47,036 nucleotides of DNA from Candidatus Iainarchaeum sp. (GTDB lineage: Archaea; Iainarchaeota; Iainarchaeia; Iainarchaeales; JAFCCW01). Positions 39,324 through 45,325 of this stretch are shown here, in pieces (position 1 is the stretch's first letter; each line of letters opens with the position of its first letter). Below the pieces are notes generated by a model that ran no database searches, was not told the DNA's origin, and saw nothing but the letters and a program-made list of their open reading frames with translations. A program made the position numbers and the translations under genes. Where the stretch lies: positions 1 through 47,036 of the forward strand of contig JAFCCW010000008.1 in the NCBI GenBank assembly GCA_017609985.1, read 5' to 3'.

Positions 39324-39375
39324 CAGAGTCTGATTTTGCAAGCAATATTTATTGTTTTTCCATCTTATTTCTTGT

Positions 39376-40458
39376 ATGAAAATAGTGAGTATAGTTGGTG
39401 CAAGGCCGCATTTTATGAAATTGTTTCCTGTTTCTCAGGCACTGAAAAAAAGTGCTTTTGAACATGTTGTAGTTCATACTGGACAGCATTATAACAGAAA
39501 CCTTTCACAGTTTTTTTTTGAAGACCTTGGGCTTGATTTGCCAGAGTACAATCTTGGAGTAGGAAGTATGCCTCGCAATGACCAAATTAATATAGCAAGC
39601 AAAGCGATTCACCAGGTTCTCAAAAAAGAAAAGCCGGATTTAGTGCTTGTTTACGGGGATACAAATTCAACTCTTGCAGGCGCGCTTGCTGCCAGACACC
39701 AAAACATTTTCCTGGCTCATATTGAGGCAGGCTTAAGGAGTTTTGATCATTCTATGCCTGAAGAAATTAACCGGATTGAAACAGACAGGATTTCAACCCT
39801 TCTTTTTGCATCGGAAAAGTCAGGAATAGACAATATAATGTCAGAGCAACTTCTTGGAAACTCCTTTCTTGTAGGCGACCTTATGGTTGAATGTCTCATA
39901 AAAAACATTAAGAAGGCAAGCAATTCAGGAGTCATTGAAAATCTTGGTCTCGAAAAAAACAGTTTTGTCCTGTCTACTCTTCATCGCCCTTCAAATGTTG
40001 ATTCAAAACAGGTGCTTTCAGGAATAATTTCAGCGCTCTTGGAAATTTCGCAGGAACTGCCTGTTGTTCTTCCTGCGCACCCGAGGCTTGTTAAACATCT
40101 GAATGATTTCGGGCTTGGTAATTTTTCTTCACGCCTGAAACTAATTGAACCGCTTGGTTATCTTGATTTTATAAAACTTTTGTCTGAAACAGCTCTTGTA
40201 ATAACAGACTCAGGAAGTCTGCAGTCTGAATCAGCTTTTCTTGAAAAAAAATGTATAACTCTTCGCTATAATACTGAAAGACCGCTTAGTGTTGAAACAG
40301 GGTTTAACATTCTTGCAGGTAACAAGTCTGAGGCAATAAAACAGATTGTTGTCGAAGCTCTTAATTCAGAGTCAGAAAGCCTCAGAAAAATTCCGGAAGA
40401 ATGGGATGGCAAAGCAGCAAAAAGGATTGTTTCAGTTTTGGAGAAATTTGAAAAATGA
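39376..40458 (+). CDS. wecB: UDP-N-acetylglucosamine 2-epimerase (non-hydrolyzing)
   Basis: VGARPHFMKLFPVSQAL, VVHTGQHYN, LVYGDTNSTLAGALAA, HIEAGLRSFDHSMPEEINR, DSGSLQSESAFLEKKCITLR. Confidence 0.92.
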   Translation: MKIVSIVGARPHFMKLFPVSQALKKSAFEHVVVHTGQHYNRNLSQFFFEDLGLDLPEYNLGVGSMPRNDQINIASKAIHQVLKKEKPDLVLVYGDTNSTLAGALAARHQNIFLAHIEAGLRSFDHSMPEEINRIETDRISTLLFASEKSGIDNIMSEQLLGNSFLVGDLMVECLIKNIKKASNSGVIENLGLEKNSFVLSTLHRPSNVDSKQVLSGIISALLEISQELPVVLPAHPRLVKHLNDFGLGNFSSRLKLIEPLGYLDFIKLLSETALVITDSGSLQSESAFLEKKCITLRYNTERPLSVETGFNILAGNKSEAIKQIVVEALNSESESLRKIPEEWDGKAAKRIVSVLEKFEK

Positions 40459-40461
40459 ACA

Positions 40462-40534
40462 TGGGGCTGCCGAGAATCGAACTCGGGTCTGCACCCCCCG
40501 AAGGTGCGATGCTACCAGGCTACACCACAGTCCC
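40462..40534 (-). tRNA. tRNA-Pro(CGG)
   Basis: Minus strand GGGACTGTGGTGTAGCCTGGTAGCATCGCACCTTCGGGGGGTGCAGACCCGAGTTCGATTCTCGGCAGCCCCA: anticodon stem GCACC/GGTGC, loop TTCGGGG, T arm CCGAG-TTCGATT-CTCGG; no encoded CCA; one A4-C69 acceptor mismatch. Confidence 0.92.
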
Positions 40535-40640
40535 AACTGTTTCGTCAGTCCCGATTCGAGCTTGCTCGAATGGGCGCATTCAAACTTTGTTCGAACAGCG
40601 TGACACCGGAATACGTCAGCCTGCTCTTGATAGAACAGGC

Positions 40641-43520: not shown

Positions 43521-44331
43521 ATCACTTGCCCTTGCTGAAAAAGAATTAAAGCTTGCTCTGCGATTCAAGTTTTCGTTTTTTACATCCGGCTTTGTTCAAC
43601 CTCTGCTTAAGATTGTTCCATTTGCGCTTGTTTACTATGGTTTCTTTGCGTTTGGAGGTGGACAAGACATCGGAGTTGTGACAGGAGCAAATTTTTTCAT
43701 TTTTCTTGTGCTTGGGCTGATTGCGGACATGTTTTTTGAAATGGGGTTTAGTGCTTTTACTACTCGTTTTCTAAATGAAAAATACTGGGATACTATTGAA
43801 GGAATTCTCATGGCTCCTCTTAATAAGATTTCTTTGATTTCCGGAGTTGGTTTAGCTGAACTAATTGCTTTTGCTCCAGCACTTGCATTGTTTTTTTCAA
43901 TTGTTTTCATTATTCATGCAGTTTCCATAAACATTATTGTTTTTGTTTTATGTGTTCTGTTGCTTGCTTTGTTTATTTCTCTTTCGCTGGGTCTTATTGC
44001 AAGCTGTGCTGTTTTGTTCAATGAAAATTTTGTTCCTTTCTTTAGTTATCTTCGAATGGGCTTAGTGTTTATTTCCTGCTTTTATTATCCTATTGATGTT
44101 CTTCTTTTCGAAACAATGGGTTACACTGTTGATCTTCGAATTCTTGCACTGCTTAATCCATTTTATCAGGCAAATTTTTTGATAAAGGAAGCTTGGTTAA
44201 ATCCAGGTTTTGTTTTAGCTGATGGAATTTTTCCTTTTGCATATTTAATTCTTTTTGCACTGATTACTCCACTTTTTGCAATATTTATGTTTAACAAGCT
44301 CTGGAGAATTCTTGGAATTCAGGGATACTAA
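43492..44331 (+). CDS. ABC-2 type transporter permease
   Basis: Six-TM protein with LNEKYWDTIEGILMAPLNKISLISGVGLAELI; overlaps upstream ATPase gene. Confidence 0.87.
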   Translation: MVKLRKFVNESLALAEKELKLALRFKFSFFTSGFVQPLLKIVPFALVYYGFFAFGGGQDIGVVTGANFFIFLVLGLIADMFFEMGFSAFTTRFLNEKYWDTIEGILMAPLNKISLISGVGLAELIAFAPALALFFSIVFIIHAVSINIIVFVLCVLLLALFISLSLGLIASCAVLFNENFVPFFSYLRMGLVFISCFYYPIDVLLFETMGYTVDLRILALLNPFYQANFLIKEAWLNPGFVLADGIFPFAYLILFALITPLFAIFMFNKLWRILGIQGY

Positions 44332-44403: not shown

Positions 44404-44516
44404 AAAAAAAAGAAATAGAGATGAGGAAGCACAGTGGGAACAAAAAATAACTCCTTTTCGCGGAGTGAGCTTTTCCCAAAAGCTTCCGGCTTTAACTGGT
44501 GCTAGTTGCCATCTCC
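44404..44516 (-). ncRNA. Candidate structured small RNA, family unknown
   Basis: Minus strand GGAGATGGCAACTAGCACCAG...GTGCTTCCTCATCTC: closing stem GAGATG/CATCTC, internal hairpins AGCTTTT-GGG-AAAAGCT and ACTCC-GCGAAAA-GGAGT, T8 tract 44411-44404, TATA-like CTTTTAAAC centred about 26 nt upstream of 44516. Confidence 0.5.
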
Positions 44517-44537
44517 ATTAGACTCTATGTTCTGATT

Positions 44538-44546
44538 GTTTAAAAG
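44538..44546 (-). promoter_or_regulatory. Candidate TATA box for the ncRNA
   Basis: CTTTTAAAC on the minus strand at archaeal TATA-TSS spacing from GGAGATGG. Confidence 0.4.
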
Positions 44547-44651
44547 TGTTTCTGAAACTTGAACTAGTTAAGAAATTAATCCTGTTTCGCTTATTGCCGG
44601 TTAAGCCTTTGGCGCAAGTCAATCTTGTGTGTTCTCATGCTTTTATTATAA

Positions 44652-45065
44652 TCAGTGTTTTTTCATTACAGTAAAAGATTCTGTTTCTTTTACTCCTTGC
44701 AATTTGCCTATATCGTCAATTAAGTTGTTCATGTCCTCTGCATTCTGCATCTGAGCATGCATTATGATGTCAAAGGGCCCTGTAACTTCAAAAATAAAGC
44801 TCTTGTTTCCTCTTGTTTTTGAAATCTTTTCAATTATTTCCTGTGTTTTTTTTGGATCGCATTTGATGCAAATCACGGTGTCGAACTGAAGTTTGCTTGA
44901 GAGTTCTGTGGAAAATTTCAGAATCGTTCCATTTTCTTTCATTGACTTTACTCTTTTTCTAACAGTTCCCTCTGAAATTCCCAACTCTTTTGCTATTCTC
45001 AAATAAGGGGTTCTGCTGTTTTCTTTGAGTGCTTCAAGTATTGCTCTGTCAGTCTCATCCAGCAT
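44652..45065 (-). CDS. Lrp/AsnC family transcriptional regulator
   Basis: MLDETDRAILEALKENSRTPYLRIAKELGISEGTVRKRVKSM plus RAM-like domain VTGPFDIIMHAQ. Confidence 0.92.
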   Translation of the reverse strand: MLDETDRAILEALKENSRTPYLRIAKELGISEGTVRKRVKSMKENGTILKFSTELSSKLQFDTVICIKCDPKKTQEIIEKISKTRGNKSFIFEVTGPFDIIMHAQMQNAEDMNNLIDDIGKLQGVKETESFTVMKKH

Positions 45066-45129
45066 GCAAACAATAAATTCGAAATATATTATAAACATTA
45101 CTTTTTTCTTACGAAATGCGTTTGTCGGG

Positions 45130-45272
45130 ATTTTGCTCGCTTTTGTCTTATTTTGTTTGCTTTGTCTTGTCTTGCTTTGTTTGTTTTGTTTTGTCTTGTT
45201 TTGTCTTGTCTTGTTTTGTCTTGTCTTGCTTTGTTTGTTTTGTTTTTTGTTTTGTTTTCCTTGTTTTTTTAT
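45130..45272. repeat. Low-complexity TTTTG/TCTTG tandem tract
   Basis: Irregular TTTTG/TCTTG units; TTTGTCTTGTCTTGCTTTGTTTGTTTTGTTTT occurs at about 45161 and again about 45215. Confidence 0.9.
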
Positions 45273-45325
45273 CTGATTTTCTCAATTATTATTTAATGTT
45301 TTCTCTATCCAGTTTTATTGATTGT

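Follow-up and report, generated by a model that had tools for sequence, protein, structure and literature searches.

Between a gene for an Lrp/AsnC regulator and an ABC-permease ORF in an archaeal contig lies a gap of 320 bp, and its minus strand raises the question of whether an RNA gene is housed there, to which family such an RNA would belong and what it might do. The window analysed here is the whole stretch of 47,036 nucleotides from Candidatus Iainarchaeum sp. (contig JAFCCW010000008.1). A preliminary description had proposed an unassigned small structured RNA with its own promoter and terminator at this place. We examine that proposal through the promoter and fold of the locus, comparison with known RNA families, covariation among relatives and complementarity to 16S rRNA, and weigh the explanations that these observations allow.

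The locus and known RNA families

The Lrp/AsnC gene, which ends at 44652, is on the same strand as the RNA, and the ABC-permease ORF, which ends at 44331, is on the opposite strand; the RNA locus sits between two convergent genes. The TATA box, RNA and T8 run reported for the minus strand in the preliminary description are all present (Table 1), and the 26-nt spacing that it gave between TATA box and RNA recurs in relatives: in nearly every member of class A, the class of the window copy (see below), the top-scoring TATA lies 23-29 nt upstream of the 5′ motif, GGAG/GAGGUG. Given this fixed spacing, class A transcripts are expected to begin with the motif or close to it. By eye, an identical BRE-like GTTTCAGAAA also stands ahead of the TATA box in the class A relatives L033 and L034. 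The RNA 3′ end may extend into the T-run. With -32.9 kcal/mol against -23.3 for dinucleotide shuffles, the RNA folds better than shuffled sequence, though the margin is not extreme (z about -2.8; 3 of 200 shuffles as good).

Table 1. Features of the RNA locus and its upstream neighbour, in window coordinates
Feature	Position	Strand	Basis
Lrp/AsnC regulator ORF, upstream neighbour outside the RNA	44652..45098	-	PF13404, PF01037
BRE-like element GTTTCAGAAA, immediately upstream of the TATA box	44549..44558	-	by eye
Archaeal TATA box CTTTTAAA, centred 26 nt ahead of the RNA 5′ end	44539..44546	-	sequence and class A spacing
Class A RNA gene, ~100 nt, beginning at G44516	44417..44516	-	covariance-model matches in other genomes, covariation; exact ends inferred
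P1 5′ strand GGAGATG, SD-like; counterpart of the relatives' 16S-tail-complementary segment	44510..44516	-	
J1/2, long 5′ junction GCAACUAGCACCAGUUAAAGCC	44488..44509	-	lineage-specific sequence
P2a 5′ strand GGAAGC	44482..44487	-	fold, covariation
P2b 5′ strand UGGGAA	44473..44478	-	pairing in 95% of cells among the members
Single-stranded core AAGCUC; G44470 and C44469 can pair with the P3 loop (pseudoknot)	44467..44472	-	
P3 5′ strand ACUCC	44462..44466	-	fold, covariation
P3 loop GCGAAAA, whose near-invariant GC can pair with the GC in AAGCUC	44455..44461	-	
P3 3′ strand GGAGU	44450..44454	-	fold, covariation
J3/2, A/U-rich junction UAUUUUUUG	44441..44449	-	
P2b 3′ strand UUCCCA	44435..44440	-	fold, covariation
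P2a 3′ strand GCUUCC	44425..44430	-	fold, covariation
P1 3′ strand CATCTCT	44417..44423	-	fold, covariation
T8 run, terminator-like	44404..44411	-	sequence

The source genome (1.16 Mb) is archaeal by its TATA promoters, its archaeal 16S rRNA and its matches to the SRP and RNase P models, and is the sole representative of its family among the genomes searched. Elsewhere in the window, a tRNA-Pro (CGG) lies at 40461-40535 (-), just past the ORF at 39352-40458, and the short ORFs overlapping it are probably spurious. At 45116-45276 (+), an ORF start consists of low-complexity FCLVLFCLV-type repeats, probably a simple DNA repeat before the true gene start.

Rfam 15 (4,227 families) gave no window match at or above the gathering threshold; at E ≤ 10, the RNA region drew only chance matches, of 13.6-18.7 bits against gathering values of 50-75, and the loci of twenty relatives gave nothing besides one neighbouring tRNA. 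The preliminary description had set the RNA apart from tRNA, 5S rRNA, SRP RNA, RNase P RNA and the fluoride riboswitch, and indeed no such match occurs at the locus. Archaeal SRP RNA (RF01857), RNase P RNA (RF00373) and 5S rRNA (RF00001) are likewise stand-alone structured RNA genes, but none of these models matches here and each RNA is encoded elsewhere in the source genome (C25, 136.6 bits; C37, 89.2 bits; and C23, 78.4 bits, respectively). Neither ARAGORN nor Rfam places a tRNA or tmRNA at the locus, the only call in the window being the tRNA-Pro. Guide-RNA families of Rfam are absent at threshold from the window and the twenty relatives' loci, and inspection by eye of the sequence and its conserved positions found no box C/D (RUGAUGA, CUGA) or H/ACA features (hairpin with pocket, K-turn, 3′ ACA). 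The fluoride riboswitch or crcB motif (RF01734), which contains a pseudoknot, bears a superficial likeness through GGNGAUGG at the 5′ end, but differs in the lack of an Rfam match, in its conserved core and in the 5′ UTR location expected of it; the gene downstream of the window RNA is convergent, and no same-strand gene lies directly 3′ of the RNA. Earlier motif surveys report archaeal motifs (for example PMC2864571, in the part of its text consulted), and neither that part nor a literature search contained a description of the present RNA, which stops short of proving its absence from the literature. As far as comparison of sequence and structure can tell, no known RNA family matches and the family is new.

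Relatives, covariation and two paralogous classes

Nucleotide BLAST against 52 genomes of the same order gave chance matches only, the best of which (L002, L003, L007) were rejected as located in unrelated sequence. A protein-anchored scan using the Lrp neighbour found no close relative, a search of phage records returned short chance matches only, and a loose motif pattern was dropped as unspecific. Relatives were found with covariance models. The model built from the single window sequence and its minimum-energy fold (R1) yielded five within the order, scoring up to 34 bits and having in common an RRGCUCAC-hairpin within a covarying helix; a model from six sequences (R2) gave many more matches, and a third of 51 rows (R3) was run on all 87 genomes searched from the phylum, which comprises one class. 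Six unrelated genomes gave no match at E ≤ 0.1, R2 had no match in the 16S loci, and an IMG/VR scan for the class B core returned 8 stretches, none matching the model.

After inspection of every match, 71 members were accepted in 58 genomes, judged by eye from core and P2, which leaves some chance that a few weak ones are wrong; those admitted despite modest scores or unusual cores are L071, L136, L140, L147, L149, L151 and L152. Excluded as false were L035, L077, L101-L103, L106, L107, L109, L111, L112, L144 and L153-L155. The RNA occurs in 57 of the 75 genomes searched from the order, covering 16 of 20 families, and outside it in one genome of a sister order (G081, L140). Since families f4, f5, f13 and f19 gave no match, it may not be universal in the order.

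From 5′ to 3′, the consensus runs through the G-rich 5′ strand of P1, the junction J1/2, a two-block P2, A-R-G-C-U-C and P3 with its loop GCYRA, followed by an A/U-rich 3′ junction, P2′, P1′ and often a T-run. P2 and P3 enclose a near-invariant core, RGCUC-(ACNNN)-GCYRA-(NNNGU), also given as RGCUC-AC..-GCnA. J1/2 measures roughly 20-45 nt and is lineage-specific in sequence, and a small hairpin predicted in the window's J1/2 is not conserved. Against this anatomy, the P1 of the preliminary description holds, in the slightly longer form GGAGATG/CATCTCT. Its P2 (AGCACCAGT/ACTGTGCT) is absent from the minimum-energy fold and has no counterpart in relatives, the conserved P2 of the window copy being GGAAGC..UGGGAA/UUCCCA..GCUUCC. 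One of its two inner hairpins survives as P3 (ACUCC-GCGAAAA-GGAGU); the other, the AGCUUUU hairpin AGCTTTTGGGAAAAGCT, is found neither in the minimum-energy fold nor in relatives.

The covariation that the preliminary description had named as support is overwhelming in P2 and P3 and present in P1 and the pseudoknot across the 71 members. The 73-row alignment on which it was counted includes two reverse-strand duplicates and was fitted to the model, which favours structure, so that P1 covariation in particular is flattered; in it, 87% of pair cells are standard, both-side changes number 498 cells, where shuffles give 150 ± 14 and slid controls no more than 128, and the covariation score reaches 0.61, where shuffles give 0.21 and slid controls no more than 0.15. 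P2 and P3 are also plain in the members' individual folds, and P1 shows compensatory variants such as ACUAGG/CCUAGU, CAGGAGG/CCUCUUG and GGAGAUGGUU/AACCAUCUCC.

Moreover, GCY of the P3 loop can pair with the RGC 5′ of UC, giving an H-type pseudoknot that is well supported but not proven, because most of its columns scarcely vary. Across 70 rows, the pair G96-C106 is GC in 68, GU in one and AU in one, with none broken, C97-G105 is intact in 68, and a third pair is standard in 63. Compensatory variants occur in L149 (AAAC/GUUU, GC to AU) and L066 (CGC/GCG), and in the window copy the pseudoknot is limited to two G-C pairs. With Rfam negative and covariation across 71 members, the locus almost certainly carries a gene for a structured non-coding RNA from a family not described before, equipped with a promoter of its own and a terminator-like T-run, as the preliminary description had put forward.

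The members fall into two paralogous classes: class A, that of the window, with 26 members counting L071, and class B with 45. Both occur together in 13 of the 58 member-bearing genomes, including the window's, whose class B copy (L136, G000:C25:13594-13694 (+), L136 1001-1101) scores 27.8 bits with core and P2 clear and is flanked by a divergent HTH (Lrp-like) gene and a convergent topA. P3 reads ACUCN/NGAGU in class A and ACCAR/YUGGU in class B, where the TATA mostly lies 35-44 nt before GGAGGG. Class B is divergent from a gene for a ~179-aa protein in 39 of 45 cases (by C-terminal signature), a protein with one weak Pfam HTH_5 match below cut-off that appears Lrp-like by eye, and topA is usually convergent downstream. 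Class A neighbours are varied (by eye, PEPCK-like, helicase, Lrp-like and membrane proteins), with no topA.

Five class A members (L065, L067, L072, L113, L152) carry a further hairpin on the 3′ side of P3, and its loop again contains GCUAA, the motif of the P3 loop. In class A of family f8 (L033, L034, L048, L050, L051, L061, L064, L068, L078), J1/2 is fixed with AAGGCAUCA, and GAUG(G)/(G)CAUC might pair in place of P1. The topA frame at L055 carries an apparent intein-like insert ending in ..NNVVVHN before STRHEIINKLYARR.

Complementarity to the 16S rRNA 3′ tail

The 5′ ends of both classes are complementary to the 3′ tail of 16S rRNA (GGAUCACCUCC). When the members' 5′ regions were compared with every 13-nt segment of the genome's 16S rRNA (1,476 segments), the 3′-terminal segments ranked 1-2 over all members, with a mean of -12.8 kcal/mol at the tail against -6.75 ± 1.35 across the 16S segments, and 1-4 with one representative per family. 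Because any G-rich strand favours CCUCC, a permutation control kept CCUCCUU and permuted only the preceding GGAUCA (179 permutations). Over all members, a comparison in which the core of six was misplaced, one of the 179 permutations was a better partner. With one representative per family, none of the 179 permutations did better in class A (n=9), 9 did in class B (n=13), and 1 did when the two classes were pooled. The best class B permutation is a one-base shift that fits the class B GGAGGGAUCC, which in many members is one base short of the perfect complement. The permutation results therefore indicate that the complement reaches past the SD core.

Pairing with the tail is weak in the window copy (-7.4 kcal/mol) and good in the class B copy of the same genome (-16.1). 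SD-like sites precede only 6 of the 35 window ORFs, so blocking of the anti-SD may matter less here, and P1 alone could account for some of the conservation of GGAGG, since the 5′ strand also pairs there. The idea of a 16S tail co-varying with the RNA between families was dropped, as all complete tails examined equal GGAUCACCUCCU. A further idea, mimicry of a 16S segment (GGCUCACC-like) by the RNA, was likewise dropped after local alignment to the genome's own 16S locus gave no more than scattered matches.

Two observations concern the 16S genes themselves. The 16S matches in L096 (G030) and L091 (G044) span 2,233 and 1,586 nt, lengths that suggest inserted sequence or introns within the 16S genes of genus g28, and the assembly G055 contains two different 16S loci (L085, L100), reflecting either two operons or contamination.

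Candidate roles and related systems

What, then, might the RNA do? The reading that we prefer, though with less than even confidence, is that it acts in trans on the small ribosomal subunit by pairing with the 16S tail. The SD-like 5′ strand would open out of P1 and, once freed, base-pair with the tail, occupying the anti-SD. We infer this docking from complementarity, and its candidate effects are that it would modulate initiation, hold idle 30S subunits or chaperone 16S 3′-end maturation. The pseudoknot core would meanwhile bind a protein or make a second ribosomal contact, and the Lrp-like protein encoded divergently from class B may tune the expression of that class to nutrient state.

The conserved core would also suit the scaffold of a dedicated RNP that dispenses with 16S pairing, in which it is bound by a particular protein, the G-rich 5′ strand being kept only for P1 and for the initiating sequence at the TATA-set start. 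Much stronger conservation in the core than in P1, together with compensatory changes in P1 itself, fits such a scaffold; constraint from P1 alone predicts P2-like drift, yet a GAGG(U)GAU-like sequence recurs and its extension past GGAGG fits the 16S tail, and we find this explanation rather doubtful. It seems improbable that the RNA is a regulatory sRNA pairing with particular mRNAs through J1/2 and relying on its conserved structure for stability or as a chaperone site. J1/2 is long, A-rich and exposed, and carries the fixed AAGGCAUCA within family f8, but sRNA seeds are usually the conserved part, J1/2 is wholly different between families, and the f8 junction has no convincing partner in the rRNA stretch examined.

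A cis-acting element, be it a 3′UTR, leader, attenuator, riboswitch or an antisense to the neighbour (topA for class B), is very unlikely: class B is usually convergent with the topA 3′ end and may overlap topA, but the RNA is preceded by a TATA of its own at fixed spacing, the window copy stands between convergent genes with no same-strand gene just downstream, and class A neighbours vary, topA not being among them. We give scarcely any credence to a small mRNA whose SD-like motif serves a short ORF; although some members have start-like triplets close to the motif, such as GGAGAUG in f8, most class B members lack a start codon within 14 nt past it, class A frames (by eye) stop within a few codons and are not conserved, and variation tracks base pairs. 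A chance foldable AT-rich spacer would be compatible with the single-sequence folding z of merely -2.8, but is hardly conceivable in the face of covariation across 71 members whose promoter spacing is fixed and whose core is near-invariant, and the covariation already refutes it.

To return to pairing with the 16S tail, the RNA may be a built-in brake on, or helper of, protein synthesis. More speculatively, the two classes could form a two-member pseudoknotted RNA system that docks on the 16S 3′ tail and controls or chaperones the 30S subunit, an Lrp-like nutrient regulator possibly governing one or both of them; if true, the system would be an RNA-based counterpart of ribosome hibernation or 16S-maturation factors. 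An RNA kept across most of a reduced-genome order, in two paralogous forms, likely has a basic role. To our knowledge, few conserved trans-acting RNAs exist in archaea besides guide RNAs, SRP RNA and RNase P RNA, and we know of none described for this lineage. The complementarity to the 16S tail raises the question of whether dedicated archaeal RNAs switch ribosomes on and off or finish 16S 3′ ends.

If the mechanism is right, the RNA would work like a known functional class, the ribosome-associated ncRNAs, with SprF1 and Val-tRF as its nearest working analogues. SprF1, an antitoxin RNA from Staphylococcus aureus, reportedly uses its purine-rich 5′ end to make contact with the ribosome and, in competition with mRNA loading, attenuates initiation (PMC8938821). 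Both SprF1 and the present RNA are small with a purine-rich 5′ end, and the ribosome binding reported for the former is proposed for the latter; SprF1 is, however, a bacterial type I antitoxin and antisense RNA, and homology is not expected. Val-tRF of Haloferax volcanii binds 16S rRNA near the mRNA channel and competes with mRNA (PMC8938821). It too is an archaeal small RNA on the 16S rRNA of the small subunit, a contact that is predicted for the present RNA, but whereas Val-tRF is a 26-nt processed tRNA fragment, the present RNA has a dedicated gene with a promoter, a terminator-like end and a conserved fold.
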